Of a stretch of 64,000 nt of DNA, positions 5,625 to 26,102 are shown one piece after another (the first letter of the stretch is position 1; every line of letters begins with the position of its first letter). Both the position numbers and the translations under genes were made by a program. Source of the stretch: Psychrobacter cibarius (GTDB lineage: Bacteria; Pseudomonadota; Gammaproteobacteria; Pseudomonadales; Moraxellaceae); NCBI RefSeq assembly GCF_016107535.1, contig NZ_JABASQ010000008.1, positions 1-64,000 of the forward strand. Reading direction: 5' to 3'. Under the pieces are notes generated by a model. That model was not told where the DNA came from. It searched no databases and saw only the letters and a list, made by a program, of their open reading frames with translations.

Positions 5625-5640
5625 AGTTTCACGTGAAACA
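5625..5640. other. parS-like site (perfect core)
   Basis: AGTTTCACGTGAAACA contains the full palindrome GTTTCACGTGAAAC, the core of the chromosomal ParB-binding site parS. It lies between the rlmF stop and its terminator. Confidence 0.88.
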
Positions 5641-10962: not shown

Positions 10963-12138
10963 CTATATACGCATTGGCATAATGACATACTGATGGAACT
11001 CATCATTCAGCTGATTGACTAGCACCGACGCGTTTGATTGACTCATGTGCATTTGCAAATCACCTTGAATCACACCAAGCACATCTTGTAAATAAGCCGC
11101 ATTAAAAGACAGCTCCATCGGCTCACCTTGATACTTCGCCTGTATCATCTCCACCGCTTCATCTTGCTCTGCATTATTAGCACGCACTTCTACCATGCCA
11201 TCGCTGGCAAAATTAAACACCACACCGCGAGATTTTTCATTACTCAAAATCGCGACACGGCGCAGTACGTCCGTCATTTTTGCTTGATTGAATAAAGCCA
11301 ATTTATCCGTATTACTTGGCATCACTCGGCGATAATCAGGGAATTTTCCATCAATCAGACGCGCAGTGAAAGTAACCATCAGGTTCTGATTGACCTGCCC
11401 GGCACTATCAACGTCACCAAAGGGTAAGCTCACTTGCAAAAACTCACGACCGAAGCTCAAGGTGACCTGATTGTCTTGCTCACCAAGCATTTTTCCTAGC
11501 TCAGAGGCCAAGCGCTCAAGCTCAATGACAGCTTTACGGGGCAAAATAGCCTGCATATTTAAATCAGCACTGACATCGATAACGCTGCGCGCCAAAGCCA
11601 ATCTATGCCCATCGGTTGCAACCGTCGTCAGCTGCTGTTGCGACACATCAAACAACATGCCAGTCAAATAATAGCGTACATCTTGAATCGCCATTGCAAA
11701 CTGCGTTTTATGAATCAAATCGATAAGACGATTGCGACTGATGGTCAATGGCGTAATATTTTCGGGATTACCCAAACTCGGATAATCTTCGCTAGGTAAT
11801 GTCCCTAAGGTGAAGCGACTCTTGCCACTGGTTAATAAGCAGCGTTCATTTTCTTGAGTAGCCAAATTAATTTGAGCTTGTGCAGGCAATGATTTACAGA
11901 TGTCTTTTAATTTTGTTGCAGGTAAAGTTGTGGTACCAGCTTCAATACAAGCACCAGCAGGCAATTTCAACGTCGATGTCAGCTCTACTTCTAAATCAGA
12001 AGCCGTCAAAATAAGCATTGATTCGGATAGCTGTAGCTTGATATTGCCCAAAATAACCATATTGTGCCGTTTATCAGCAGCCTTGGCGATCAAATTAATG
12101 GCTTTTAGTAACGACTCTCGATTAATCGATAATTGCAT
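10963..12138 (-). CDS. dnaN: DNA polymerase III beta subunit (sliding clamp)
   Basis: Processivity clamp that tethers Pol III to DNA; it dimerises to a ring of three-domain subunits. The protein starts MQLSINRESLLKAI, has the conserved TVATDGHRLALA segment near residue 175, and ends in the characteristic YVIMPMRI. Its 391 aa exceed the 366 aa of E. coli DnaN modestly, with small inserts in the middle domain. The gene follows dnaA by 161 bp and is probably co-transcribed with it; recF follows. Confidence 0.98.
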   Translation of the reverse strand: MQLSINRESLLKAINLIAKAADKRHNMVILGNIKLQLSESMLILTASDLEVELTSTLKLPAGACIEAGTTTLPATKLKDICKSLPAQAQINLATQENERCLLTSGKSRFTLGTLPSEDYPSLGNPENITPLTISRNRLIDLIHKTQFAMAIQDVRYYLTGMLFDVSQQQLTTVATDGHRLALARSVIDVSADLNMQAILPRKAVIELERLASELGKMLGEQDNQVTLSFGREFLQVSLPFGDVDSAGQVNQNLMVTFTARLIDGKFPDYRRVMPSNTDKLALFNQAKMTDVLRRVAILSNEKSRGVVFNFASDGMVEVRANNAEQDEAVEMIQAKYQGEPMELSFNAAYLQDVLGVIQGDLQMHMSQSNASVLVNQLNDEFHQYVIMPMRI

Positions 12139-12299
12139 GCTTGGTTACTCTTATTTAAATGATTTTTATTATAAAACTTAACAATAATGGCTTAATCATA
12201 CCCTGTCTATTGACTATAATCCATTCGCTGTCTGTCTACTCGTATTTTTAATATTATAAACCATATCAATCCACTAAAACATAGTGATACCGTCACCTG

Positions 12300-13745
12300 C
12301 TAACCCGCTTGCAGCATCAATGCCAGTGTTTTGTAATCCTTATCAAAAGCAGGATCTGCTGCTCGTAGCTCATTAACTTTATCGCAAGCATGCATCACCG
12401 TTGTATGATCGCGACCACCGAATGATTGACCAATCTCAGGAAAACTATCACCAGTCAACTCACGCGATAATGCCATCGCTATTTGACGCGGTCTAGCAAT
12501 ACTGCGCGTGCGTTTACGACCCATCATCTCTTTGATGGTCACATCATAGTACTCAGCAACCACTTTGCGAATATTATCCATATTCACAGCTTGCACACGC
12601 ATCGCGACGATGTCTTTTAGCGCATATTGCACCATTTCAAGAGTAATCTGTGCACCCGTCAAGTTAGCATTGGCAAAAACTTGATTTAGAGCACCTTCTA
12701 AACGCCTAACATTTGAAACCACGTTTTGAGCGATGAATAATGCGCATTCTTTAGGCAGTGTCATACCATATGAAGCTGCTTTTTTTTGCAAAATTTGCAC
12801 ACGAGTATCAATCTCAGGCGGATCAACTGCTACAGTTAGCCCCCAAGAAAATCGCGATCTAAAACGTTCATCAAATTCGGTCATTTGCGAAGGATGACGA
12901 TCTGAAGCCAAAATAAGTTGTTTATCACCACTGGTAAAATCTGCAAACAGTGTCAAAAACTCATTACTACTTTTGGTTTTTCCTGCCAATACATGAATAT
13001 CATCTACAATCAATAAATCAACTTTTTTAATTTTCTTTTTAAAATCTTCTATTTTATTATTTCTTAACGAATAAACCAATTGATTAATAAATTTTTCAGA
13101 AGTGAAATAATAAAAACTTTGATTATTTTTTAAATATCGATGTGCTACAGAATGCATTAAATGCGTTTTTCCCAAACCAGAAGGTCCGTATATAAATAAA
13201 GGATTGTGTCGATTTTTTGATTGGCGCTTACCAAGCTCATAACAGGCTTTATAAGCCAGATTGTTAGATTTGCCAGTGACAAAAGTTTCAAAAGTAAAGT
13301 CAGGGTTTAGATAACTTAACGACTTGGCATCAGCAGAATCAACCAATTCTGCGTGACGCATATTGGCATCAATATCTGCTTTTGCATTGTTATGATGAAT
13401 AGTTTCAAACTGATGGTCTGCAGGGGTAGGGGAGGGTTTATCTTCATCAAACAAAGACCCTGATTGCAATTGACGATTGTCTTCGTTATCGCGGCCAGCG
13501 TTATCAACACGCACAACCACCTCTTCGATACTTCCCTGACTGTGCTTAGCAACCAGCTGCTGTATCTCTTGCAAGTGGTTTTTTTTGATGTAAGTCACAA
13601 AATAATCATTAGGAGCAAGTATAGTCAGCGTTTGCGCCTCTTGATGAGCTGACAATGGTCTCAACCACATAGTAAATACGTTGTCTTTGACGTTATATCG
13701 TAGGTCATTTAGACATTTATCCCAAATATTTGCTGTGTCTATCAT
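12300..13745 (-). CDS. dnaA: Chromosomal replication initiator protein DnaA
   Basis: AAA+ initiator that binds DnaA boxes and melts oriC. Domain I covers about residues 1-80 (IWDKCLNDLRYNV), domain II is a polar, poorly conserved linker (about 81-145), and domain III has Walker A GPSGLGKT (187-194) and Walker B LLIVDDIH (about 244-251). The domain IV helix-turn-helix carries the DnaA signature GGRDHTTVMHACDKV near 445. Codons for the AAA+ core between 13020 and 13140 are unusually AT-rich compared with the rest of the gene. The upstream region contains several DnaA boxes, consistent with autoregulation, which is known for the family. First gene of dnaA-dnaN-recF. Confidence 0.99.
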   Translation of the reverse strand: MIDTANIWDKCLNDLRYNVKDNVFTMWLRPLSAHQEAQTLTILAPNDYFVTYIKKNHLQEIQQLVAKHSQGSIEEVVVRVDNAGRDNEDNRQLQSGSLFDEDKPSPTPADHQFETIHHNNAKADIDANMRHAELVDSADAKSLSYLNPDFTFETFVTGKSNNLAYKACYELGKRQSKNRHNPLFIYGPSGLGKTHLMHSVAHRYLKNNQSFYYFTSEKFINQLVYSLRNNKIEDFKKKIKKVDLLIVDDIHVLAGKTKSSNEFLTLFADFTSGDKQLILASDRHPSQMTEFDERFRSRFSWGLTVAVDPPEIDTRVQILQKKAASYGMTLPKECALFIAQNVVSNVRRLEGALNQVFANANLTGAQITLEMVQYALKDIVAMRVQAVNMDNIRKVVAEYYDVTIKEMMGRKRTRSIARPRQIAMALSRELTGDSFPEIGQSFGGRDHTTVMHACDKVNELRAADPAFDKDYKTLALMLQAG

Positions 13746-14295
13746 GAAAAATACTAACCCTATAATTTGAAATAATATTTGTGTTTTAGCAGTGTGATCT
13801 GTTGCGTAGCCCTTAATATTTTCCGCAATTATTTCCGTTGGAAACCATATTGGGAGTTACGTTGATAAACTATACGAAGCCATATATTAAGTAGGGGCTA
13901 ATCTAACACAAATACCCTGTGGATAAAACCTTGTTTTTTGGGGATAAGGCTGTGGATACTTTTGTGCATAACTTTAAAAGTTGAGTTATCCATATTTAGC
14001 CCACAGGTTATCCACAGGTTTACCCATAGTACAATATGTTGATAATAAAAAGGAAAACTTACTTAGCCACAGATAATCGAGCTCCCAATAACAACAATAC
14101 TTATATATATTAATAGTTAATTATTATAGATTTCGAAAAAAACTGTGGATAACTTTTGGGAATCCATCACTGAATTAATTAACTGAGTCGTTATTTTTTA
14201 GTTATGAATATGAAATTTACACACGATGAATCATTTAAAATGATATTTCCTCTGTCAAAATATCTGTCTGCATCGACATAGATTAAATTAGTTCA
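13746..14295. other. Probable oriC: dnaA-rpmH intergenic region with DnaA boxes
   Basis: Three perfect DnaA boxes (TTATCCACA) are seen at 13918-13926 (minus), 14008-14016 (plus) and 14144-14152 (minus). One-mismatch boxes lie at 13951-13959, 13963-13971 and 13986-13994. Between the boxes at 14090-14135 is a run of almost pure A/T, a candidate unwinding element. Genes on both sides are transcribed outward: dnaA to the left, rpmH to the right. This arrangement is the classical Pseudomonas/Moraxellaceae type of origin. No gene lies in the stretch. Origin activity is inferred. Confidence 0.8.
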
Positions 14296-14324
14296 TTGAC
14301 CAAGATTCTATGCGGTGGTATAAT
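14296..14324 (+). promoter_or_regulatory. Strong sigma-70 promoter for rpmH
   Basis: TTGACC (14296-14301), a 17-bp spacer and TATAAT (14319-14324) lie 45 bp before the rpmH start. Confidence 0.8.
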
Positions 14325-14368
14325 CCTCCGTTATTACGAATTTAGTCCATTATTTTGATAGGTGAGTT

Positions 14369-14503
14369 ATGAAACGTACATTCCAACCAAGCGTGATCAA
14401 GCGTAAACGTACTCACGGTTTCCGTGCTCGTATGGCAACTAAAAAAGGCCGTCAGGTCTTAGCTCGTCGCCGCGCTAAAGGACGTCATCGTCTTACTGTA
14501 TAA
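14369..14503 (+). CDS. rpmH: 50S ribosomal protein L34
   Basis: A 44-aa, very basic protein starting [19 protein letters not shown] and ending in GRHRLTV, a near-textbook L34. It is a small structural protein of the large ribosomal subunit. GGTGAG precedes the ATG by a few bases. It is preceded by a strong promoter and followed about 100 bp later by a terminator, which lies before rnpA. The rpmH-rnpA-yidD-yidC-mnmE order is widely conserved next to dnaA. Confidence 0.98.
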
Positions 14504-14603
14504 TCAGTAGATTGCGATAAGCATGGCTTATAGTGCTTGTTGTGTTTCTATTATTTATAGATTGCGATAGTCAATCACCACAACTGACACTTAGCCATAT
14601 ATT

Positions 14604-14630
14604 AAAAGCGCCCACATCGGCGCTTTTTTT
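14604..14630 (+). terminator. Terminator between rpmH and rnpA
   Basis: The stem AAAAGCGCC (14604-14612) pairs with GGCGCTTTT (14619-14627), with a six-base loop and a T-run. It would separate high rpmH expression from rnpA, fully or by attenuation. Its position also shows that the long in-frame extension upstream of rnpA is not coding. Confidence 0.85.
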
Positions 14631-14703
14631 GTCTCTGTACTTTGTTGTTATTTCTGCGCTATTATTTCCGCTACCGTTATTCGCTCTTATACTAGGTTGT
14701 GCT

Positions 14704-15075
14704 ATGTCCAATACTGTTTCAGCGGCAGCTAATGCCCGCTTCACCAAAGAGCAGCGTTTGCTCACGCCTGCGGCCTTCCGTGAGGTTTTTGATGCACCTG
14801 AGCGTAAGCTTCATCAGAGCCATCTAATGGCATTTGTGCGTACCAATGATCATGATAAGCCACGAGTCGGCATGGCTATTACCAAGCGTAAAGTTCCTAC
14901 GGCTGTCGCGCGAAATTTAATCAAGCGTCAAATACGTGAGCACTTTCGTGTAAAGGCTCATTCTTTAGAAAACAAAGATATTGTTTTTATTGTTAAAAAA
15001 TCTATAAAAGATATAGATAACAAAGAATTAAAAAATCAAATAATCAATATTATTAAAAAAGTAGAAAAAAAATAA
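14704..15075 (+). CDS. rnpA: Ribonuclease P protein component
   Basis: Protein subunit of RNase P, which matures tRNA 5' ends together with the RNA subunit. The family core is present: [17 protein letters not shown], then [26 protein letters not shown], the basic RNR-type helix that binds RNA. The C-terminal 35 residues are Lys/Ile/Asn-rich and encoded by strikingly AT-rich DNA. The open frame runs up to 14533, but that part crosses the rpmH terminator, so the ATG at 14704 ([13 protein letters not shown], 123 aa) is chosen. The next gene, yidD, begins one base after the stop codon, suggesting translational coupling. Confidence 0.95.
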
Positions 15076-15076
15076 G

Positions 15077-15454
15077 ATGGATTTTTTATTTATTAATTTA
15101 AATAATATTCTTTATAAAATTATTTATTATTTTATTGTTTTTTATCAAAAGTTAATAAGCCCACTATTACCTGCTCGTTGCCGCTATTACCCTACGTGCT
15201 CGAATTATGGTAAACAAGCTTTGGCATGGCATGGAGTCCGAGCAGGCAGTTGGTTATTATTAAAACGTATCAGCAGTTGTCATCCTTTGGGTGGACACGG
15301 CATTGATTTTGTGCCGCTACCGTTATCCTCTTATCATTATCAATATGTACCTTTTAACGCACTAGCTACTAGTGTCAAAGTTCAAGGTTTATATGTTTTT
15401 AGAGATAATAAAGGCTATGTGTCTCGCTTAAACCATATGATGAAACTAACATAG
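15077..15454 (+). CDS. yidD: Membrane protein insertion efficiency factor YidD
   Basis: A small protein that assists YidC/Sec-dependent insertion of inner-membrane proteins. The family signature is intact: an amphipathic N-terminal segment ([20 protein letters not shown]) followed by [14 protein letters not shown] and [15 protein letters not shown]. At 125 aa it is longer than most YidD proteins (about 85 aa) because of a C-terminal tail after VPLP that I do not recognise. The first 30 codons are extremely AT-rich. It lies one base behind rnpA and before yidC, the usual order. Confidence 0.95.
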
Positions 15455-15476
15455 CATTCGTCATCGACTGCGAAGT

Positions 15477-15513
15477 TGTGGATATCTATTTAGTTACCCA
15501 CAAGTTATCCACA
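15477..15513. other. DnaA-box cluster upstream of yidC
   Basis: A perfect box TTATCCACA lies at 15505-15513, with one-mismatch boxes TTACCCACA (15494-15502) and TGTGGATAT (15477-15485). Three boxes in 37 bp point to a DnaA-binding patch 1.4 kb from the oriC candidate. Confidence 0.6.
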
Positions 15514-15665
15514 CTCTTGGTATCATTTAAGGCGGATTTTTAGTAAAATGATGCACATTTTATGTAAATGACTGGCAATACTGTTGTCACATATGATGAT
15601 AATTGTACGGTCATGACACATGCCCTAATTTTTCATTCCCTAATTTTTTAATCTAGGAAAGGTTT

Positions 15666-17363
15666 ATGCAAAAGATATTTCGGGTGATGATCATCATTGC
15701 GATGTTAATCACCGCTTATCTGCTGATTTTGGCATGGCGAGATGATTATGCCGATGCGCCAGCTGTAGATGCGGTGTCAGAAACCACTACTTCAGTAGGT
15801 GCTGATATCCCTTCGACAACTGGTGCAGCAGGTGATATTCCGGTACAGACGTTGCCTGTTGATAACAATACAGTCGCTAATGATGCTGTGACGGCAACGC
15901 CTGCTAAAGACACGGGATTAATCACGGTCACTACCGATCGTTATGATATAAAGATCAACCCAGAAGGCGGCGATATTGTTTATGCTGCTCTTAAGCAGTA
16001 TGACGCAACGCTCGATAGCGATAAGCCTTTCGTATTGCTAGAGAATAATAGTAATCGCGTGTATGTGGCTCAGTCTGGTCTTATTGGTCCTAATGGTATT
16101 GATACTGCAGAAGGTCGTGCCAAATACAGCCATACTGCTAATAATTACGTCATGGAAGCAGGGCAACAGACGCTGTCAGTACCGCTGACTTATAAAAAAG
16201 ATGGCGTGACCGTTACTAAGACCTTTACCTTTACTGAAAATAAATATCCGATTGATATTAGCTATCAAATACAAAATGCTTCTACACAACCGTGGCAAGG
16301 TCAGCTATTTGCCCAGTTGAAACGTGATGACAGTAAAGATCCAGGTATGTCTGATAAGGGTGCGCTTAGTATGGCTACTTACTTAGGCGGCGCTTGGGGT
16401 ACTCCTGATGATCCATATAACAAGCTCAAATTTAAAGACTTTAATGATGGTGAGCTAGCTGTTAGTAGCGATAAAGGTTGGGTCGGTATTGTGCAGCATT
16501 ACTTTGTATCAGCATGGGTACCTGAAAACTTTACCGCTACTTTCTTTAGCCGTGAAGCAGGCGATGATTACTTCATTGGTTTTAACAGTCAGCCTGTCAA
16601 TGTCGCGCCGAATAAACAAGTGACATTAGATGCCACCTTATACGCTGGTCCTAAGGTACAATCTGAGCTAAAAGACGTGGCAGTAGGTCTTAATAAAACG
16701 GTCGATTATGGGTTGTTATGGCCAATATCGAAGATTTTATTTGCCATCTTGGACGGTATTCATAAAGTCATCGGTAACTGGGGTTGGTCAATCATTGTAT
16801 TGACGATTTTAGTCAAAATTGCTCTGATGTGGTTCTCGAATAAGAGCTATTATTCGATGGCGAAGATGCGTGCGATTGCGCCAAGATTAGCCGCACTTAA
16901 AGAAGAGCATGGCGACGATCGAATGAAGATGTCGCAAGAAATGATGGCTATTTATAAAGAAGAAAAAGTCAATCCAATGGCAGGTTGTTTGCCTATTTTG
17001 ATGCAAATGCCTATCTTCTTAGCGCTATATTGGGTGTTGGTTGAGAGTGTTGAGCTGCGTCATGCACCTTGGATTTTATGGATTCAGGATTTATCGGCGA
17101 TGGATCCTTGGTTTATTTTACCATTGCTGATGGGTGCCTCGATGTTTGTACAGCAGCAGCTAAACCCGCAGCCAGCTGATCCGATGCAAGCGAAAGTGAT
17201 GAAGTTCTTACCAATCATCTTTACTGCTTTCATGTTGTTTTTCCCAGCTGGTCTCGTACTATACTGGACAGTCAACAACTTGTTCAGTATGACTCAGCAA
17301 TATATTGTCAATAAAAAAGTCGAAGAAGAGCAAAAGCGTCGTACTGTTAAAGTATTGGACTAA
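15666..17363 (+). CDS. yidC: Membrane protein insertase YidC
   Basis: Inserts and folds inner-membrane proteins, alone or with SecYEG. The 565-aa protein has an N-terminal membrane anchor (IFRVMIIIAMLITAYLLIL), an Ala/Thr/Asp-rich linker (about 30-85), the large periplasmic domain (about 90-345) and the conserved insertase core beginning near GLLWPISKILFAILDGIH. The core includes the cytoplasmic hairpin YSMAKMRAIAPRLAALKEEHGDDR, then MAGCLPILMQMPIFLALYWVL and the final LVLYWTVNNLFSMTQQYI segments. Length and topology match Gram-negative YidC. AGGAAAGG precedes the ATG. A DnaA-box patch lies upstream and a strong terminator follows. Confidence 0.98.
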   Translation: MQKIFRVMIIIAMLITAYLLILAWRDDYADAPAVDAVSETTTSVGADIPSTTGAAGDIPVQTLPVDNNTVANDAVTATPAKDTGLITVTTDRYDIKINPEGGDIVYAALKQYDATLDSDKPFVLLENNSNRVYVAQSGLIGPNGIDTAEGRAKYSHTANNYVMEAGQQTLSVPLTYKKDGVTVTKTFTFTENKYPIDISYQIQNASTQPWQGQLFAQLKRDDSKDPGMSDKGALSMATYLGGAWGTPDDPYNKLKFKDFNDGELAVSSDKGWVGIVQHYFVSAWVPENFTATFFSREAGDDYFIGFNSQPVNVAPNKQVTLDATLYAGPKVQSELKDVAVGLNKTVDYGLLWPISKILFAILDGIHKVIGNWGWSIIVLTILVKIALMWFSNKSYYSMAKMRAIAPRLAALKEEHGDDRMKMSQEMMAIYKEEKVNPMAGCLPILMQMPIFLALYWVLVESVELRHAPWILWIQDLSAMDPWFILPLLMGASMFVQQQLNPQPADPMQAKVMKFLPIIFTAFMLFFPAGLVLYWTVNNLFSMTQQYIVNKKVEEEQKRRTVKVLD

Positions 17364-17380
17364 GTAGCTCATCAATTGAT

Positions 17381-17411
17381 AAAAGACCATCGCTACGGCG
17401 GTGGTTTTTTT
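17381..17411 (+). terminator. Terminator after yidC
   Basis: ACCATCGC (17386-17393) pairs with GCGGTGGT (17398-17405) around a TACG tetraloop, followed by a T-run. Confidence 0.88.
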
Positions 17412-17485
17412 ATGCGTGACATTTCTATCATCGCTCACTGATTTGAAATAAAATAAGCGCAAAGCATGGCTATTTAAAGTTTGCT

Positions 17486-17514
17486 TTGTCAGTCTGTGTC
17501 CAGCCGTCTATAAT
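17486..17514 (+). promoter_or_regulatory. Sigma-70 promoter for mnmE
   Basis: TTGTCA (17486-17491), a 17-bp spacer and TATAAT (17509-17514). Transcription would begin near 17521. Confidence 0.75.
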
Positions 17515-17555
17515 GGGGTTTTTAGCTATTGAGAGTAATTGTGGATTCCCTAGAG

Positions 17556-19001
17556 ATGGCGTCAAACGTACCTAAAGCATCTGAACCACCTAAAGCATCT
17601 GGCTTGGCCACGATTGCTGCTATTGCCACACCGCTTGGAAGAGGTGGCGTTGGTGTTGTACGTCTGTCAGGTGCGCGTGCTTATGACATTGCCTGTACAC
17701 TAACGGGTAAGTCTGCTTTTACGCCACGTATGGCCAGTTTTTGTCGTTTTTATCAGGCTGATGGTACAGTCATTGATGAAGGATTAGTGCTGTACTTTAA
17801 AGGCCCGCATTCGTTCACAGGGGAAGATGTGATTGAACTGCAAGGGCATGGCGGCATGATTCTACAAAATCAACTGCTAGCAAGGGTGTTTGAGCTGGGC
17901 GCAAAACAAGCAGGTGCTGGGGAATTCTCTTATCGTGCTTTTGATAATGATAAATTGGATTTGGTACAAGCAGAGGCTATCGCTGATGCCATCGATGCGA
18001 CCAGTGCTGCCGCTGCGAGTAGTGCCATTCGCTCCCTAAGTGGTGAGTTTTCAAAGAAGATTAATCAGCTATTAGAGCAGCTTATTCATCTGCGTTTGCA
18101 TGTTGAAGCGGCGATTGATTTCCCTGACGAAGAAGACGTGGATTTTTTATCAGACGGTGTCATACAAAGTAAACTTGAGCAAACGCAAGACAAGATACAG
18201 CAAGTATTGGCGACCGCCAAGCAAGGTCAGCTCTTACGTGATGGTATCCATGTGGTCTTAGCGGGTAGACCAAATGCGGGTAAATCAAGCTTGCTGAATC
18301 GTCTGGCAGGGCAAGAGCGCGCTATCGTTACCGATGTTGCAGGTACGACTCGTGATACGCTACAGGAGACCGTAGTACTCAATGGTTTGACGCTGCATTT
18401 GACCGATACTGCAGGTCTGCGCGAGACTGAAGACACGGTAGAGCGTATTGGGATTGAACGAGCACGTACCGCCATTACACAGGCTGATATGCTACTGATG
18501 GTCTACGATGTGACTCGTGATCTTGAAGAAGAAAGTACGCCGCTACAGCTTGCAGAACAATTATTTGGTGAGTTACCAGAGGCTAAACGCTTATTGATTA
18601 TTGCTAATAAGAGTGATTTGTTAAGTGATTTACTAGATGATAGTAGCAGTCAAATACCCTCTGTCTCGCAAATCGCAATAAAAGAACGTGGTTATGAACA
18701 AGTTAATGTTTCATGTGAAACAGGTGCTGGTATCGATAATTTAGTCGAAGCCTTATGTGCTAAGGTCGGTTTTCATCCGCCAGAAAACAGCCTAATTGCT
18801 CGCACACGTCATATAGATGCACTTAGACGCACAGCCGACTCTTTAGCAGAGGCGCACGAGCAGTTAACGGTCTTTCAAGCAGGAGAGTTAGTCGCTGAAA
18901 GCTTACGCCAAGCTCAGAACAGTTTGGGTGAGATTACGGGAGCGTTTAGTGCGGATGACTTGTTGGGCAAAATCTTTGGTAGTTTCTGTATTGGAAAATA
19001 A
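17556..19001 (+). CDS. mnmE: tRNA modification GTPase MnmE (TrmE)
   Basis: With MnmG it forms the 5-carboxymethylaminomethyl group on wobble uridine of certain tRNAs. Domains in order: the N-terminal tetrahydrofolate-binding domain (TIAAIATPLGRGGVGVVRLSG), a helical domain, and an inserted G domain with G1 GRPNAGKSS, G3 DTAGLRETEDTVERIGIERA and G4 NKSD. The C-terminal CIGK matches the essential CxGK motif. The segment NVSCETGAG of the G domain is encoded over a parS-like site. Starts are possible at TTG 17529, GTG 17541 (GAGAG upstream) and ATG 17556; the promoter at 17486 allows all three. I report the ATG, with the GTG nearly as likely. Confidence 0.97.
   Translation: MASNVPKASEPPKASGLATIAAIATPLGRGGVGVVRLSGARAYDIACTLTGKSAFTPRMASFCRFYQADGTVIDEGLVLYFKGPHSFTGEDVIELQGHGGMILQNQLLARVFELGAKQAGAGEFSYRAFDNDKLDLVQAEAIADAIDATSAAAASSAIRSLSGEFSKKINQLLEQLIHLRLHVEAAIDFPDEEDVDFLSDGVIQSKLEQTQDKIQQVLATAKQGQLLRDGIHVVLAGRPNAGKSSLLNRLAGQERAIVTDVAGTTRDTLQETVVLNGLTLHLTDTAGLRETEDTVERIGIERARTAITQADMLLMVYDVTRDLEEESTPLQLAEQLFGELPEAKRLLIIANKSDLLSDLLDDSSSQIPSVSQIAIKERGYEQVNVSCETGAGIDNLVEALCAKVGFHPPENSLIARTRHIDALRRTADSLAEAHEQLTVFQAGELVAESLRQAQNSLGEITGAFSADDLLGKIFGSFCIGK
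18707..18722. other. parS-like site inside mnmE (one-base variant)
   Basis: TGTTTCATGTGAAACA is identical to the site at 10363. It encodes VSCET, where the conserved G-domain pattern is V-S-A-x-T-G-x-G, so the site shares bases with a constrained motif. Confidence 0.75.
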
Positions 19002-19051
19002 TCAGCCGATTTTTTTGAATTGCCTGATACAGCTCGTTAATTCTCAGAAAT

Positions 19052-19088
19052 TTCGGTCTTATCATTCGGTCTTATCATTCGGTCTTAT
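19052..19088 (+). repeat. 13-bp tandem repeat, 2.8 copies
   Basis: TTCGGTCTTATCA occurs at 19052-19064 and 19065-19077, and its first 11 bases recur at 19078-19088. It lies between mnmE and nrdR. Confidence 0.9.
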
Positions 19089-19136
19089 AAATAGTGACTG
19101 TGATTCTTGTGCTTAATATTGAAATAAGGAAACGCT

Positions 19137-19613
19137 ATGCATTGCCCGTATTGTAACGCGTCAGAGACGAAAGTTATTGATTCGCGTCTGGCGGCAGAAG
19201 GTGCGCAAGTCCGTCGCCGCCGCTCATGTAATAGCTGCCAAGAGCGTTTCACTACTTTTGAGATGGTAGAAGTAGTCATGCCAAGAATCATCAAGTCAAG
19301 CGGTAAAATTGAGCCTTATGATAATGAAAAACTGCGCCGCTCTATTTTATTACCATTGCAAAAGCGCCCTATCACCATTGATGAACAAGAGGCGATGATC
19401 AGTCGTATTGAGAAGCGTGTTAGACAGATGGGTGAGCGTGAAATCAGTAGCAAGGTGTTGGGTGAGATCATCATGAGTGAGCTTAAAACGTTAGATGATG
19501 TTGCTTATGTGCGCTTTGCTAGTGTTTACCGCGACTTTCAAGATATTGATGCTTTCCATCAAGAGATTGCCAATATTCGCCCAAATGAAAAAGCTGACGA
19601 TAACGTTAAATAG
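19137..19613 (+). CDS. nrdR: Transcriptional repressor NrdR
   Basis: Nucleotide-sensing repressor of ribonucleotide reductase genes. It has an N-terminal zinc ribbon with Cys pairs at residues 3/6 and 31/34 ([12 protein letters not shown] and [14 protein letters not shown]), followed by the ATP-cone domain from about residue 49 ([20 protein letters not shown]). Its 158 aa match the family's usual length. AAGGAAA precedes the start. The nrdR-ribD order is widely conserved in Proteobacteria. Confidence 0.98.
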
Positions 19614-19650
19614 TTTTTACCCTCTACTTTTTTATTAAGTGTATCTCTTT

Positions 19651-20706
19651 ATGACGCTCTCAAACCATACTCAGAATGCGCAAGACCGCTACTTTATGAT
19701 GCTTGCGATCGAACAAGCCAAACAGGGTTTATATACCACCAGACCTAATCCAGCGGTAGGCTGTGTCATCGTGCAAGCAGAAGCGATCGTCGGTCAAGGG
19801 TTTCATCCGAAAGCTGGTCAGCCTCATGCAGAAGTATTTGCGCTAAAAGAAGCGGGTGCGAGGGCTTTAGGTGCAACTGCCTATGTGACTTTAGAGCCTT
19901 GTAGTCATACGGGGCGTACGCCACCTTGTGCTTTGGGTCTTATTAATGCTGGTGTGCAACGTGTGGTGATTGCAGGGCTTGATCCCAATCCACAAGTGGC
20001 AGGACGCGGTGTGAAACTGTTAGAGCAGGCTGGAATTCAAGTGACAGTCGGTATATTAACCGAGCAAGCAGAAGCTTTAAATCGTGGATTTTTAAAGGCA
20101 ATGCGCACCCAGATGCCTTATGTACGACTGAAAATTGCCACCAGCCTTGACGGTCGTACCGCGATGGCATCTGGCGAGTCAAAATGGATTACCTCAGCGG
20201 CTGCCCGCGAAGATGTGCAGAAGCTACGTGCTCAAAGTGGCGCAATTATTACTGGTAGTGAGACGGTTATCTCTGATAATCCACAGCTTAATGTACGTTC
20301 CAACCAACTAGCTGTGCCACCTGAACAAGTTCCTACTCCTAAAGTTGTCGTACTCGATAGACGTCAGCGCTTAGAACACAGCTCACAGTCTGACTATCAG
20401 TTATGCCGTCGACCGGATACGATTTATTGGCGCGAAGATAACTTGACTGAATTACTAAAAAAATTAGTCAGTGATCATCGGTGTTATGACGTGTTGGTAG
20501 AGGCCGGTGCTAGTGTTGCTGGTAGTTTCTTAAGCCAACAATTGGTAGATGAGTTGATTGTCTATCAGGCGCCTTGTTTGTTAGGCGCGCAAGCCAGACC
20601 GATGGTTGATTTTAACCCATTGTCTCTAGCTCAGCAGTTGCGTTTTAATATTTATAGTCATGAAACATTAACTCCTGACCTTAAACTGACTTTATTACCG
20701 CTATAA
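19651..20706 (+). CDS. ribD: Riboflavin biosynthesis protein RibD (deaminase/reductase)
   Basis: Bifunctional enzyme for the second and third steps of riboflavin synthesis. The N-terminal deaminase domain has the zinc-site motifs HAE (about residues 59-61) and PCSHTGRTPPC (about 83-93). The C-terminal reductase domain starts near KIATSLDGRTAMASGESKWIT and contains the conserved LVEAGASVAGSFL segment. The frame opens at a GTG at 19639; the ATG at 19651 gives the standard N-terminus, though no strong ribosome binding site precedes either. It is separated from ribE by an unusual 420-bp DnaA-box and parS region. Confidence 0.96.
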   Translation: MTLSNHTQNAQDRYFMMLAIEQAKQGLYTTRPNPAVGCVIVQAEAIVGQGFHPKAGQPHAEVFALKEAGARALGATAYVTLEPCSHTGRTPPCALGLINAGVQRVVIAGLDPNPQVAGRGVKLLEQAGIQVTVGILTEQAEALNRGFLKAMRTQMPYVRLKIATSLDGRTAMASGESKWITSAAAREDVQKLRAQSGAIITGSETVISDNPQLNVRSNQLAVPPEQVPTPKVVVLDRRQRLEHSSQSDYQLCRRPDTIYWREDNLTELLKKLVSDHRCYDVLVEAGASVAGSFLSQQLVDELIVYQAPCLLGAQARPMVDFNPLSLAQQLRFNIYSHETLTPDLKLTLLPL

Positions 20707-21126
20707 CTGGTTATTTATAAACAGCTTATCCACAGTCTGCGCTAAATTTTTGCTCAATGTGGATAAGCAGTCAGTGTCGTACAAGGTTCCACATGAAACT
20801 GTGCATAACTTTGTTTCACATGAAACAGAAAACTAGGCTTTTTATAAAAAAATTGATATTAATCCTTTGAAATCAGTAACTTGGGTTTTACTGCTAATCT
20901 TTATTGATGTTAGTCAACATCTTGCTTTCTGTGGATAACTTAACGGAAATGCGTGTTTTAATACGTTATGAGTTGATTTATGAGGACTTATCCACAATCT
21001 ATCCCATCATAGACTTAATTAAGCTCAAGTTGCCATAAAAAACTGGCTTAGATAAATGCTGCCACAATATTAATAGATTAAGATATATTGTCTATAAAGA
21101 CAACATCATAATGAAATGAGGTCGAT
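20707..21126. other. ribD-ribE intergenic region with dense DnaA boxes
   Basis: These 420 bases hold no gene. Four perfect DnaA boxes are present at 20726-20734 (plus), 20758-20766 (minus), 20930-20938 (minus) and 20988-20996 (plus), plus a one-mismatch box at 20800-20808. This is more perfect boxes than in the dnaA-rpmH region. Two parS-like sites lie among them. No FMN riboswitch signature was recognised before ribE. The region may titrate DnaA, add to origin function, or organise the origin domain; which of these cannot be told from sequence. Confidence 0.75.
20785..20827. other. Two adjacent parS-like sites
   Basis: TGTTTCACATGAAACA at 20812-20827 is the one-base variant seen in recF. 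GGTTCCACATGAAACT at 20785-20800 is a weaker copy with a further mismatch. The DnaA-like box at 20800-20808 lies between them. Confidence 0.7.
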
Positions 21127-21801
21127 ATGTTTACTGGAATTATAGAGAGTGTTGGAAAGGTTAAGTCCATGCAGCCTACGGGCGGTGATATACGTTTGAC
21201 GATAGAATCTGATGGTTTGGACTTTAGTGATGTGAAGCTAGGAGATTCTATTGCCTCCAATGGTATCTGCTTAACCGTTGTAGACCTAGGTAGTAATCAT
21301 TACTCGGTCGATGTCTCACGTGAAACTATCGCTCGTACCGCATTAGAAACTTTAAAAGCTGGTCACACAGTAAATTTAGAGAAAGCGATGCTACCAACCA
21401 CGCGTTTTGGTGGTCATATCGTCGCGGGTCACGTCGACGGCGTCGGCGTGGTCAGTAAGCTGCAACAAGATGCGCGCTCTATCTATATCGAAATTGAGAT
21501 ACCACAAGAGCTGGCGCACTATACAGCGACTAAAGGCTCTATCACGGTTGATGGTATTAGTCTGACGACCAATCTTGTAAGAGACAATATTGTCTCTTTA
21601 AATATCATTCCTCATACCGCACAAGTGACCAATATCGCTAAGCATTGGCTGGTTGGAAATAAGGTCAACATCGAAGTGGATATCGTCGCGCGCTATTTAG
21701 AACGTTTGTTAAATAAGTCGCAAACCAGTGGTATGAATACGCCAAGTCCGCAAAGCCAAATTACAGAAGCATTTTTAGCAGATAACGGTTTTATGAAATA
21801 A
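21127..21801 (+). CDS. ribE: Riboflavin synthase (alpha subunit)
   Basis: Forms riboflavin by dismutating two molecules of 6,7-dimethyl-8-ribityllumazine. The sequence shows the two tandem lumazine-binding repeats: the first opens MFTGIIESVGKV and includes DSIASNGICLTVVD, and the second begins near GGHIVAGHVDGVG and includes GSITVDGISLT. Both repeats carry the N/D-G-I-S/C-L-T pattern. At 224 aa it is slightly longer than usual, with a polar tail after residue 200. GAGG stands just before the ATG. The sequence TGTCTCACGTGAAACT near 21312 resembles parS with one core mismatch. Confidence 0.97.
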   Translation: MFTGIIESVGKVKSMQPTGGDIRLTIESDGLDFSDVKLGDSIASNGICLTVVDLGSNHYSVDVSRETIARTALETLKAGHTVNLEKAMLPTTRFGGHIVAGHVDGVGVVSKLQQDARSIYIEIEIPQELAHYTATKGSITVDGISLTTNLVRDNIVSLNIIPHTAQVTNIAKHWLVGNKVNIEVDIVARYLERLLNKSQTSGMNTPSPQSQITEAFLADNGFMK

Positions 21802-21868
21802 TTGGTTCATGAAGTAGCTGATTTATGAATTAATTGGTTTAAACCTAAAAAGTAGGTTTTACAGATTG

Positions 21869-24700
21869 TCATGATTTTATGAAGCTCTGTAAAACCGACT
21901 CTAGTTCTTTTTTGTTGATAGGTTTGGCTAAAAATTCATCCATTCCTACTTCTATACAAGCGTCGCGATCTTCTTTGGTATTGTTCGCAGTCAGCGCCAC
22001 AATCGCAATTTTATCGCCTTGCGCACGAATCGCTTGGGTAGCCTGTAGCCCATCCATGACAGGCATGCGACAGTCCATCAAAATGAGTGAGATATCTTGA
22101 CGCTGTTGTTGTAGCATATCTAACGCTTGCTGACCATCTTCTGCGACCACACTACGATAACCAAGTTTACTCAATATCTTGCACGTTATTTTCTGATTGG
22201 TTGGACTGTCTTCTACTACCAAGATAAGTGGCAATACATTCTCGTTGGCAGCTTTATCTGCTTCGTTTGCTAGCTGCTTATTCTCTTCTTTTATCTCTAT
22301 GGCTTGAACCAGCTTCTGTCTCGCTGGTAAGGTTAAGCGCAGTAATTCAGAGAGCAATAAAGTCGCATCTAATGGTTTGCTCAAGAATCCTTCATATTTA
22401 TCTAATAATATAGAGGGAATACGGCGCTCAGGTTTCATACTAAGTAGTATTTTTGGTAGCGACGGATTATCGAGTAGGGTATTTAATGCTTGTTGTCTAT
22501 CATCATTCCCTATCGCCTGATTAGCGGAAGCAATAGACAGGGTTTCATAATATTCGTAATCTAATAGCAAGATAGGGGCGAGTCTTTGCTCGTCTTGTGC
22601 CAATTTTTCGTTTAATTGTTGTAGATCTAATTTATCTATAGAGGTATAGATAGTAGCTGGCATCGATAAATATGCGCAAAAATCGCGCAGATGTTTGGCA
22701 CGTAGTGGTTGTTTAATCACTGCTATTAGATGGATATGAGTCAAATGCTGACTATGATGATAAATAGGCTGATAATTTGGACGTCTGCAAGGCAGATAAA
22801 GATTCAGACTGCTGCCTTCAGTCATCGTGCTTTTTATTTCAATAAAACCACCCAATAATCGCGCAAAACTATTGACGTTATTTAACCCTAGGCCTTGCCC
22901 AGTCGTGTTCTTTTGCATGTAATTAACGTTTCGATGGGTGTTTTGGTTGCTGCTTTTATTAAGCTGAACCAACAGTTGATGTTGCTTCGCTATATCGATG
23001 CCCATACCGCTGTCTTTTATGCTAAAACGAATCCAGTCGTGTGAGGCATAATTGGGATTGTCTTTATTGATTTTACTATTTTTAATCAGTGTAAGGTCTT
23101 TATTAAGATTTACTAAGCTTCGGTTTTTTGTTGTTAATATCTCTGCATTACTGACCATTTCGATGGTCAGTGATACGTAGCCAGAAGTGGTAAATTTCAC
23201 TGCGTTATCTAATAAGTCGTACAAGATTTGCTGTAGGCGCTGATGGTCTGTATCAATACAACGCGGACTGTCAGGTGTAAAAAAATACAGCAGCTCAAGT
23301 CCTTGCTGCCTTATCCTTTCTATAAATGACTGACTGACCTGTTGCCCCAGTCTATAAATATCGACAGGCTCAATGCTTAGGCGGGTTTTTCTTACCGCTA
23401 TCTCCTCGATGTCTAGCACATCATTAAGCGTCGTTAGCATACTCTGACTGCTTTTAATTAAGGATATTAAAATATCATTCTGCGCAGCAGTCAAGGTCTC
23501 AGGATCAATCGGTTCTAGCGTGTCAATCATTGCTTCTAATGGCAGGCGCAAATCATGACCCATCGTCGATTTAATCGTATTAAATTCATTAATTTGGCGT
23601 TGTAGTCGTTGATTTTGTTGCTGTAATTGCCCTATTTGACTGGCAAATTCATTAACGTTATTCAGCAGTACGGTAAAGCCGTGAACCTGACCATGTTCAC
23701 CAAACCATGGCGTAACGTGCAATTGGTAAGTCTGTTCATTTTCCAACCCATAGACTGTTAAGGTACGAGTAACGCGTAGGTTGGATAACGTTTGCAGCAA
23801 TCGTTGCGTGGATTCATCTTTACCCGCGATAAAATCCGTCAGTTCATAGTTGCTATCGCTTTGCAGTAAAGACATGAATATTTGTTCAAAGCGTTTATTG
23901 AAAAAGCTGATTTGACCATGACGCATGATCATCAGCATCGGTAAAGGGGATTGCTCAACCAAACGTTCAAGACGGTGTGTTAGGGTTTTAATGCGGCGAT
24001 AGTCATTATGCAGCTGGTAGCTGACACGGCTCAGCGCATGGCCTAAACGCAAAAACTCAGGCGTAGATTTTTTTTGCAAAAAAGGCGGCGGACTATAGGC
24101 TTCTTTTGCGTGGCTACTTAGATTGTCCGTATAAATCAGCAGCTGTTCCCAATTGGTGCGACGATTGAGCATATACAGCAAAGCGATAATAAAAAGCATG
24201 ATCGCTGCCATCAATGGCAACCAGTAGCGATAAGATATCCAGTCAATGATAAGCGGCTTATGGCGCAATATAATATAAAGCTGATGACCACTTTTGAGTT
24301 TAATGGTGCCGGTTAAGTTGCGATTATTGAGCGTGTAAGCACTATGACTGCCGTTATTAGAAGGGGATGAGCTAATGATAGGAAACGTAACGTTAGCAAA
24401 AGCACGCTCATTGGGCTGAGTATGGCGATGGATATAAGTTTGCCCAGAGGGCATCATAAAAACCAGCTGATAGCTTATGTCTTCAAATACGGGTTTTTCT
24501 AAAATCCTTTTAATGTCAGGATTTAGAAGATCATCACGTTCAGTAACTTCATACTGTAATGTATGAAAAGTATCGATACTGTGTTGTTCACTGTGTTTTT
24601 TTATCTCGTGAAACAGCGCAAAATAATAGATAGACAACATGACCAGCAAGGTCAGTGCATAAAATATGAGTAAGCGCTGTAAGGACTGAAACTGTTGCAT
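21869..24700 (-). CDS. Orphan hybrid sensor histidine kinase
   Basis: A 943-aa inner-membrane kinase. Two membrane helices (about 9-30 and 158-179) frame a periplasmic sensor region, followed by a PAS-like segment (about 250-350) and a Gln-rich coiled coil (355-375). The phospho-acceptor helix contains His382 in MGHDLRLPLEAM, a divergent H-box. The ATPase domain has the N-box LLDNAVKFT (about 496), DSGMGI (563) and GQGLGL (601). A degenerate receiver (about 655-790) keeps an Asp near 714 and a Lys-Pro near 775. The C-terminal receiver (about 825-943) has ED at 830-831, the phospho-acceptor Asp876 (LMDCRMPVMDG) and Lys927. No Hpt domain or partner regulator is adjacent, so phosphate must leave by a protein encoded elsewhere. 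The signal is unknown. Confidence 0.88.
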   Translation of the reverse strand: MQQFQSLQRLLIFYALTLLVMLSIYYFALFHEIKKHSEQHSIDTFHTLQYEVTERDDLLNPDIKRILEKPVFEDISYQLVFMMPSGQTYIHRHTQPNERAFANVTFPIISSSPSNNGSHSAYTLNNRNLTGTIKLKSGHQLYIILRHKPLIIDWISYRYWLPLMAAIMLFIIALLYMLNRRTNWEQLLIYTDNLSSHAKEAYSPPPFLQKKSTPEFLRLGHALSRVSYQLHNDYRRIKTLTHRLERLVEQSPLPMLMIMRHGQISFFNKRFEQIFMSLLQSDSNYELTDFIAGKDESTQRLLQTLSNLRVTRTLTVYGLENEQTYQLHVTPWFGEHGQVHGFTVLLNNVNEFASQIGQLQQQNQRLQRQINEFNTIKSTMGHDLRLPLEAMIDTLEPIDPETLTAAQNDILISLIKSSQSMLTTLNDVLDIEEIAVRKTRLSIEPVDIYRLGQQVSQSFIERIRQQGLELLYFFTPDSPRCIDTDHQRLQQILYDLLDNAVKFTTSGYVSLTIEMVSNAEILTTKNRSLVNLNKDLTLIKNSKINKDNPNYASHDWIRFSIKDSGMGIDIAKQHQLLVQLNKSSNQNTHRNVNYMQKNTTGQGLGLNNVNSFARLLGGFIEIKSTMTEGSSLNLYLPCRRPNYQPIYHHSQHLTHIHLIAVIKQPLRAKHLRDFCAYLSMPATIYTSIDKLDLQQLNEKLAQDEQRLAPILLLDYEYYETLSIASANQAIGNDDRQQALNTLLDNPSLPKILLSMKPERRIPSILLDKYEGFLSKPLDATLLLSELLRLTLPARQKLVQAIEIKEENKQLANEADKAANENVLPLILVVEDSPTNQKITCKILSKLGYRSVVAEDGQQALDMLQQQRQDISLILMDCRMPVMDGLQATQAIRAQGDKIAIVALTANNTKEDRDACIEVGMDEFLAKPINKKELESVLQSFIKS

Positions 24701-25016
24701 GAAAGCGTGGTCCTATATCGACACAAGAAACATAGTGAGTAAGTCATCAGTTTGGCACAGTAGCTGGTTTATTCAAGCCGTTTTGTCTTTTACGGTTGTA
24801 CAGCTATTATCTAGAAAAAAATGGTGAATGGCAGTGGAATATCGCTCAATCACGCATTGTTTTGTAAATAAACTCATCAATAAGAGCGCCCTGCTTGCTT
24901 TCTATTATAAAGACAAACCGTATCATTGGTAACGCTCGATTACCGTTATTACAACCATGGCACAACATCGCAAACTCACCTATAATGAGTCAATCAACCC
25001 TATATAATGCCTGTTT
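24701..25016. other. Divergent intergenic region between kinase gene and fmt
   Basis: No gene is seen in these 316 bases. TATAAT occurs at 24981-24986 and again at 25003-25008, the second only 8 bp before the fmt ATG. Neither has a convincing -35 element. Confidence 0.4.
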
Positions 25017-26102
25017 ATGACTACAATTGCTTCTGCCTCCGATTTATCCATGCCATCTACGACGAAAGATTGCTCATCTAGTAAGCGCTTAAGAGTTGCG
25101 TTTGCTGGCACTCCTGAGTTTGCCGCCGTTAGTCTTGAGGCGCTTATCAGCCAGCAAGAAGCGTTGAATATAGACATCGTCGCTGTGTATACGCAACCTG
25201 ATCGCAAGGCAGGACGGGGTCAAAAATTATCGGCCTCTGCAGTAAAGCAAGTCGCATTGGCGCATGATATTGCCGTTGAGCAGCCTCTCACCTTTAAAAA
25301 ATCTAGTAGTGAAGGGTTGGTTGCACGTGAGACTCTGCGTAGTTATCAGCCAGATGTGATGATTGTCGCGGCTTATGGCTTGATATTGCCGATTGGGGTA
25401 TTGACCACACCGACTTATGGTTGCCTCAATATTCATGCGTCCTTATTACCACGCTGGCGCGGTGCAGCACCTATTCACCGCGCGTTATTGGCGGGTGATA
25501 GCGAGACGGGTATTACCATTATGCAGATGGATAAGGGCTTAGATACAGGTGATATGATCTACAAAATCAGCGCTCCTATTGAGGCTGATGATACGGCTGC
25601 CAGCCTCCATGATAAAATGGCTGAGCTTGGTGCGACCGCCATTATTACCGTGCTAAAGGACTTGCCACATTATCAAGCTCAGGCTATCGCTCAAGATGAC
25701 AGTCAAGCCAATTACGCTGAAAAACTGGTCAAAACCGAAGGCGAAATCAACTGGACACAATCCGCTACTGAAATTGAGCGACAAATTCGTGGACTGACGC
25801 CATGGCCAGGTTCATATACTTTTTTGGCAGGGCAGCGTGTCAAGATTTTAGCCAGCTTACCTGTGAATCCGTCGCAGCAAACCAATCAGCCTGCTGGTAC
25901 GGTCATCAGCGTTGGACGCAAAGCGATATTGGTAGCTTGTGGTCATGATAGTAATATTGATAATGGTCTCGAAAAACCGCAAGCCAGTACTTTAGCCATT
26001 ACCGAATTACAGTTTGCTGGTGGTAAACCGATGACAGCCGAGCAAATCTGCCATGGCAACCAATTAAATGATGGTGACCAGTTCACAGCAGACTCGAAAT
26101 AA
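25017..26102 (+). CDS. fmt: Methionyl-tRNA formyltransferase
   Basis: Formylates the initiator Met-tRNA. The N-terminal domain begins at RVAFAGTPEFAAVSLEAL and contains the catalytic-site segments HASLLPRWRGAAPIHRALLAGD and GITIMQMDKGLDTGDM. The C-terminal domain begins near RQIRGLTPWPGSYTF. At 361 aa it is longer than the E. coli protein (315 aa), mainly because of a 28-residue N-terminal extension and a polar insert near the end. An ATG at 25050 would shorten the extension. Fmt is followed by rsmB, a common fmt-rsmB pairing; a def gene is not in this window. Confidence 0.96.
   Translation: MTTIASASDLSMPSTTKDCSSSKRLRVAFAGTPEFAAVSLEALISQQEALNIDIVAVYTQPDRKAGRGQKLSASAVKQVALAHDIAVEQPLTFKKSSSEGLVARETLRSYQPDVMIVAAYGLILPIGVLTTPTYGCLNIHASLLPRWRGAAPIHRALLAGDSETGITIMQMDKGLDTGDMIYKISAPIEADDTAASLHDKMAELGATAIITVLKDLPHYQAQAIAQDDSQANYAEKLVKTEGEINWTQSATEIERQIRGLTPWPGSYTFLAGQRVKILASLPVNPSQQTNQPAGTVISVGRKAILVACGHDSNIDNGLEKPQASTLAITELQFAGGKPMTAEQICHGNQLNDGDQFTADSK

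Follow-up and report, generated by a model that had tools for sequence, protein, structure and literature searches.

A second cluster of DnaA boxes with interlocked parS-like sites between ribD and ribE of Psychrobacter: a putative control locus close to oriC

Introduction

Why does the chromosome of Psychrobacter cibarius carry, between two riboflavin genes and a few kilobases away from its presumed origin, a second group of DnaA boxes mixed with parS-like sites? Sites outside oriC that control DnaA have been described mainly in Escherichia coli and a few other species. Here, we describe the ribD–ribE gap in a contig stretch of 64,000 nucleotides (the window), together with the corresponding gaps of relatives, and suggest from the pattern of predicted sites that this second set of boxes, with its interlocked ParB sites, probably helps to control the time of chromosome copying. 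Within the literature on origins of Psychrobacter, Moraxella and Acinetobacter, on parS in combination with DnaA boxes and on datA with IHF and ParB, no title or abstract opening describes such an element; subscription papers were mostly outside this scope.

Architecture of the ribD–ribE gap

The predicted parts of the gap are compiled in Table 1. They form an array of five boxes (A+ B− C− D− E+) with a putative IHF-like site between C and D and with parS-like sites touching the weak box C, and by sequence this arrangement is Psychrobacter-wide. In the window the final base of parS-like site 1 is at the same time the first base of box C, which in relatives frequently reads TTATACACA. An earlier note on this DNA had recorded four perfect boxes, one near box and two parS-like sites in 420 bp and more perfect boxes than in the presumed oriC; both observations hold (four perfect boxes here, three in the dnaA–rpmH gap). 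Its description of the cluster as the denser one is true for perfect boxes only because, with one mismatch allowed, there are nine boxes in the oriC gap and five here. The distance, given there as 6.7 kb, is 6.6 kb when measured from the last oriC box (14144) to box A (20726).

Table 1. Features of the ribD–ribE gap and of the presumed origin (positions within the window)
Feature	Position	Strand	Remarks
dnaA–rpmH gap, presumed oriC proper (context only)	13746..14368		3 perfect and 6 one-mismatch boxes
ribD–ribE gap, non-coding, whole module inside	20707..21126		ribD end 20706, ribE start 21127
DnaA box A, TTATCCACA, perfect	20726..20734	+	sequence match; mean column identity 0.88 (21 aligned gaps)
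DnaA box B, TTATCCACA, perfect	20758..20766	-	sequence match; column identity 0.96 (21 aligned gaps)
parS-like site 1, GGTTCCACATGAAACT, degenerate	20785..20800		3 mismatches to TGTTTCACRTGAAACA
DnaA box C, TTATGCACA, weaker, one mismatch	20800..20808	-	column identity 0.97 (21 aligned gaps)
parS-like site 2, TGTTTCACATGAAACA, exact	20812..20827		sequence match
IHF-like site, AATCAGTAACTTG	20871..20883	+	1 mismatch to WATCAANNNNTTR; column identity 0.81 (21 rows)
DnaA box D, TTATCCACA, perfect	20930..20938	-	column identity 1.00 (21 aligned gaps)
DnaA box E, TTATCCACA, perfect	20988..20996	+	column identity 1.00 (21 aligned gaps)

The cluster stands out clearly from its background. The 3.24-Mb draft genome (78 contigs) contains 34 perfect boxes, 18 forward and 16 reverse, compared with 20 for the reversed pattern used as control. 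Contig stretches of 500 bp with two or more perfect boxes are confined in this draft to the ribD–ribE and dnaA–rpmH gaps. Four perfect boxes in 420 bp have a Poisson probability of 1.6e-11, or about 1e-7 across all windows of the same size in the genome. Counting boxes with at most one mismatch, the window has 44, a number reached by none of 100 shuffles (mean 18.57, sd 4.01, maximum 34).

No Rfam family matched positions 12000–26000 at gathering scores, which means that no known RNA was found in the ribD–ribE gap. The 420-bp gap gave no match at E 1e-5 in collections of 72,556 plasmid and 50,697 phage records, and a mobile origin as its source was rejected on these grounds. The window RibE is 100% identical to that of Psychrobacter sp. 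WY6 over residues 15–224.

Conservation within the genus

Thirty gaps of the genus were fetched at first, of which two were broken off (L015 and L019) and 28 were complete; seven more were added to give 35. At least two perfect boxes are present in 28/28 complete gaps of the first set, and 34 of the 35 carry perfect copies of both D and E. The earlier note had named lack of conservation in relatives, together with absence of DnaA binding in vivo, as what would speak against its proposal; the comparison showed the boxes to be conserved, although gaps related by descent do not count as independent events. The gene order dnaA-rpmH-rnpA-yidD-yidC-mnmE-nrdR-ribD-ribE is common to the window and 20 relatives, in which ribE starts 7.0–9.2 kb from the dnaA start. 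In an alignment of 21 gaps, which leaves aside seven longer complete ones (L008, L017, L018, L022, L023, L024, L026), column identity amounts to 0.88–1.00 in the boxes, 0.94–0.95 in the parS sites and 0.81 in the IHF-like site, compared with 0.61 elsewhere. Three perfect boxes within 450 bp away from oriC were found in 19 of 21 genus stretches and two in all 21.

The composite of parS, box C and parS in its strict form (at most 3 mismatches) was found in 49/66 genomes of the genus and in 0/133 genomes of 15 other genera. Genomes with the composite carry a single copy, apart from one in which two copies overlap. Among the 17 genomes of the genus that lack it are some with other spacings, for example G012 with 37 instead of 27 bp between the parS sites. 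The 27-bp parS–box unit is tandemly duplicated, in the manner of iterons, in Psychrobacter luti (L092, upstream of ribE) and in G146 (G146:C2:61450-61517). In L015 (G010:C20) and L019 (G006:C12) the draft assemblies break within the gap, between the parS composite, which lies on another contig, and box D.

Occurrence beyond the genus

Two other genera of the family (g31 and g28) keep the + − − + layout of boxes in six gaps. Their ribD–ribE region lies near dnaA or rpmH in 4/4 stretches of g31 and in 2/3 of g28; in the third g28 stretch (L061, from G105) the 5.1 kb upstream of ribE contain no ribD and a single perfect box. This stretch, as well as L072 on a short contig, contributed no gap to the counts. 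Box A is situated just inside the ribD end in L059 and L060, and the two g28 gaps have one mismatch each in boxes D and E. G111 and G100 have four perfect boxes and no parS-like site was found in them, so parS is not essential to the core of the module. In Moraxella macacae (L096) ribE is found 4.8 kb beyond ribD, and the boxes + − − + (two of them with one mismatch) together with two degenerate parS-like sites follow directly after ribD.

Among 80 named ribE loci, 70 have neither dnaA nor yidC nor mnmE in the stretch, and only two of these 70 show a perfect box within 900 bp upstream; one of the two is a Psychrobacter contig ending 2.4 kb upstream (L090). Likewise, no perfect box was found within 900 bp upstream of ribE in ten stretches from eight further genera without dnaA, yidC or mnmE in about 10.5 kb upstream. 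These box-less ribE loci far from origin genes and the displaced ribE of M. macacae indicate that the module tracks the origin side and not ribE.

Within the order, 20 dnaA stretches were compared, 19 of them from other families and one from a genus of the same family (g27), picked from 36 genomes for contig room. Away from oriC, no stretch among them shows three perfect boxes in 450 bp and three show two, a comparison in which box usage may differ.

Spacing of the sites

The inverted pair D–E, searched for at separations of 44–62 bp only, was found in 40 of 41 gaps, 57–59 bp apart in 36 and 47–48 bp apart in four; the one gap without it (L077) lacks box E. Box A was found in 29 gaps at 52–55, 65, 72–74, 84 or 112 bp from C: a box on the + strand precedes C by 52–84 bp in 28/39 gaps and by 112 bp in one more. 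The distance C–D is looser (99–145 bp, with 129–133 bp in 27/39). The D–E and A–C spacings group in steps of about 10 bp. For a period of 10.5 bp, the phase coherence amounts to 0.93 for D–E, 0.82 for A–C, 0.72 for C–D and 0.29 for the distance from E to ribE, values that are no formal test because the gaps are related. Among the 39 gaps with box C, a parS-like site (at most 3 mismatches) stands at C−15 in 32, at C+12 in 27 and at C+22 in two.

IHF-like site and proteins of replication control

The consensus of IHF is WATCAANNNNTTR. Its reverse form is printed in the accessible part of PMC8682772. A match on the + strand starting 62 to 59 bp before box D is present in 27 of 35 genus gaps, 14 times perfect and 13 times with one mismatch (the window belonging to the latter), and control offsets between −20 and −124, apart from the adjacent band, gave matches in at most one gap each. 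Eight genus gaps have no IHF-like site at this position, one of them having it at −71, and it was found in 0/6 gaps of g31 and g28. Two of these six, L064 and L065, instead match the consensus perfectly in the C–D segment on the opposite strand. Counted anywhere in the gap, perfect matches occur in 20/41 gaps (3.2 expected from mononucleotide shuffles) and matches with one mismatch in 39/41 (31.7 expected). It is therefore the fixed position that carries weight, because one-mismatch matches are common by chance. Perfect matches were also detected in 9/21 dnaA–rpmH gaps. The oriC of E. coli has a known IHF site, and the consensus with at most one mismatch gave no match on the E. coli oriC stretch; the simple consensus evidently misses some real sites.

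The genome of P. cibarius encodes IhfA and IhfB (scores above the PRK-type NCBIfam cut-offs and below the older TIGR cut-offs), an HU-like protein scoring below its cut-off, ParB and Hda. SeqA was not found in this genome by a search that was positive in E. coli.

Position of the origin

The dnaA–rpmH gap contains an AT-rich stretch at about 14085–14143. When GC skew was checked, as the earlier note had proposed, the cumulative minimum of the window was located at 14779, near rnpA and not in the dnaA–rpmH gap itself. In 21/21 genus stretches it lies at most 2.6 kb from the dnaA start (0.98–1.13 kb in 12 of them) and never at ribD–ribE, and from the minimum to ribE the cumulative skew climbs by 165–281. 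Only this whole-sequence cumulative skew is used in the argument. Skew at four-fold sites is noisy, weak and mixed (pooled over 21 stretches, + strand: dnaA −0.003, yidC +0.130, mnmE +0.010, nrdR −0.158, ribD +0.048, ribE −0.027); it was set aside and counts neither for nor against a second origin.

According to the accessible part of PMC4285127, bipartite origins consist of two box clusters with a spacer gene between them and extend up to about 2 kb in all. Here seven genes (rpmH to ribD) and a distance of 6.6 kb separate the two clusters, and the skew turns at the element in 0/21 stretches, so a bipartite oriC, as proposed in the earlier note, is weakened and was rejected. With the skew minimum on the dnaA side and the limit of about 2 kb, the ribD–ribE gap is not likely to be the main origin.

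Comparison with known control sites

The closest likeness, noticed post hoc, is to E. coli datA, the locus of IHF-dependent DnaA-ATP hydrolysis (DDAH), which is also a non-coding cluster of DnaA boxes outside oriC, on its early-replicated side. An IHF site lies between datA boxes 2 and 3 (PMC5742627, accessible part). In MG1655 we measured a perfect box at 0, the IHF consensus on the other strand at 65 and a same-direction box with one mismatch at 162; their assignment as boxes 2 and 3 was deduced from that statement in the accessible text. Counting from D on the minus strand of the Psychrobacter module, the IHF-like site follows at 55 on the opposite strand, and boxes C and B follow at 130 and 172. 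Order and relative strands agree, whereas the spacers differ by 10 and 22 bp, i.e. by about one and two helical turns. For the IHF site between same-direction boxes that characterizes datA, the candidate counterpart here consists of consensus matches, present at the fixed position in 27 of 35 genus gaps and in none of the six gaps of the other two genera, with C as the weaker box. Further differences concern the distance from oriC (6.6 kb here, about 0.47 Mb in E. coli according to the part of the source available) and the additional inverted boxes A and E and internal parS-like sites, which are predicted from sequence. Neither is the gene context shared (ribD/ribE here, glyVXY/queG in E. coli), and no common ancestry is claimed. 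The comparison suggests that a geometry like that of datA can exist directly beside an origin.

On chromosome II of Vibrio cholerae, rctA/parS2 is an initiator-binding control site with an internal ParB site beside the origin (PMC3141006, accessible part). Its initiator, however, is RctB and not DnaA, and the chromosome is a secondary one. In Caulobacter crescentus DnaA acts at boxes of the centromere near oriC (PMC6399470, accessible part), and a DnaA box touching parS near oriC is also found here in the form of sequence matches; yet that organism belongs to a different class of bacteria and the accessible text mentions no array of box, IHF site and box. DARS1 and DARS2 of E. coli are clusters of DnaA boxes as well, DARS2 having IHF sites. 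Their core, as far as the accessible sources describe it, comprises three boxes with the first one opposite, 14 and 12 bp apart in MG1655 DARS1 (box names deduced). The module is without this 14/12-bp core and its identity with DARS was rejected.

Possible function

Our preferred reading, to which we assign a probability of roughly 0.5, is that the ribD–ribE gap serves to control DnaA close to oriC in the manner of datA and has ParB sites integrated into it. It is favoured over a mere sink or operator because an assembled DnaA complex is suggested by the location, the high-affinity boxes, their fixed geometry and the IHF-like site; that the draft genome has no cluster of perfect boxes other than this one and the one at oriC is in line with it. 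IHF would bend the C–D segment, allowing DnaA bound at B/C and at D, which point in one direction, to form one complex. Being copied soon after initiation at oriC, the locus would double its dosage early, and the doubled locus could lower free or ATP-bound DnaA and prevent a second start, as datA does. ParB at the flanking parS sites may modulate DnaA at box C, either blocking or assisting it, which would provide a tie to segregation. Of the interpretations offered in the earlier note, the datA-like site and the ParB/DnaA hub fit the spaced module, the IHF-like site and the contact between C and parS. A more specific version can be put forward only tentatively, with the odds clearly against it: on this primary chromosome, ParB on the two parS sites around C might decide whether DnaA completes the IHF-bent complex of B/C and D, and inactivation of the initiator would then depend directly on the segregation state of the origin just copied. 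If true, this would be a DnaA/ParB counterpart of rctA/parS2 inside a datA-like site. In any case a compact element shared across the genus, in which DnaA boxes stand in fixed register with IHF-like and ParB-like sites, offers a small and mutable target for testing feedback from segregation to initiation in a genome where SeqA was not found.

The signal could also run in the other direction, with DnaA beside parS licensing or releasing the ParB–parS complex, which is what has been reported for Caulobacter, so that the locus would sense DnaA activity and act on segregation instead of initiation. The fixed offset between C and the parS-like site at C−15, the restriction of the strict composite to the genus and the precedents from Caulobacter and V. 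cholerae (PMC6399470, accessible part) argue for it, as does the finding that among eight parS-like sites of the window (at most 2 mismatches) only the one in the module has a DnaA box (at most one mismatch) within 100 bp. The remaining seven, at 5625, 6340, 9598, 10363, 18707, 27189 and 36375, some of them inside recF and mnmE, speak against it, and boxes A, D and E with the D–E spacing persist in G111 and G100, where no parS-like site was found; we regard this reading as unlikely. A second or split origin is improbable. The cluster would then either belong functionally to oriC or be a second, dormant origin resembling that of Pseudomonas aeruginosa, where two fragments are capable of autonomous replication, only one of them being essential (cited in PMC4403523, accessible part). 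Perfect boxes, the IHF-like site and an AT-rich C–D segment are compatible with it (mean AT fraction over 39 gaps 0.75, compared with 0.67 for D–E and 0.69 from E to ribE). Nevertheless, boxes and an AT-rich stretch are already available in the dnaA–rpmH gap (richest 40 bp 0.90 AT, versus 0.85 in the ribD–ribE gap of the window), the skew minimum stays on the dnaA side, oriC is 6.6 kb away, and box starts in the module are at least 32 bp apart compared with 12-bp steps in oriC.

Simple titration, in which high-affinity boxes near oriC absorb DnaA irrespective of their geometry, could draw on the box enrichment near oriC reported for E. coli (PMC12371093, accessible part). It seems insufficient because titration by itself needs no fixed spacing or orientation, whereas order, orientation and spacing are conserved here, and we hold it to be highly improbable. 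The lowest probability of all is given to an operator through which DnaA would regulate transcription of ribE. DnaA is known to act as a transcription factor and the boxes lie upstream of ribE, but in 40 gaps ribE lies at anything from 30 to 449 bp from box E, against a fixed D–E spacing, the module remains by ribD when ribE is displaced in M. macacae, and ribE loci away from origin genes have a perfect box upstream in just 2/70 cases. A promoter scan of the gap yielded three sites, all on the other strand, with 2.9 expected by chance.

Further boxes in the vicinity of the origin

In genus g36, probably related to Acinetobacter, an inverted pair of perfect boxes lies about 6.9 kb to the left of dnaA, beyond gyrB and on the opposite side of oriC but at a comparable distance (L196–L202). 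It was seen in 7/10 stretches with gyrB, six of them chosen for showing two box pairs there. That g36 shares the same element was rejected, as its second pair is on the other side, beyond gyrB, and the stretches were mostly preselected for it. Within Psychrobacter, two head-to-tail boxes 11 bp apart (TTACCCACA and TTATCCACA) occupy the yidD–yidC gap upstream of yidC (15494–15513 in the window). This pair occurs in 15/21 genus stretches, and both of its boxes are perfect in L052 and L053. One or two perfect boxes are found in the yidC–mnmE gap of L041, L042, L043 and L044.
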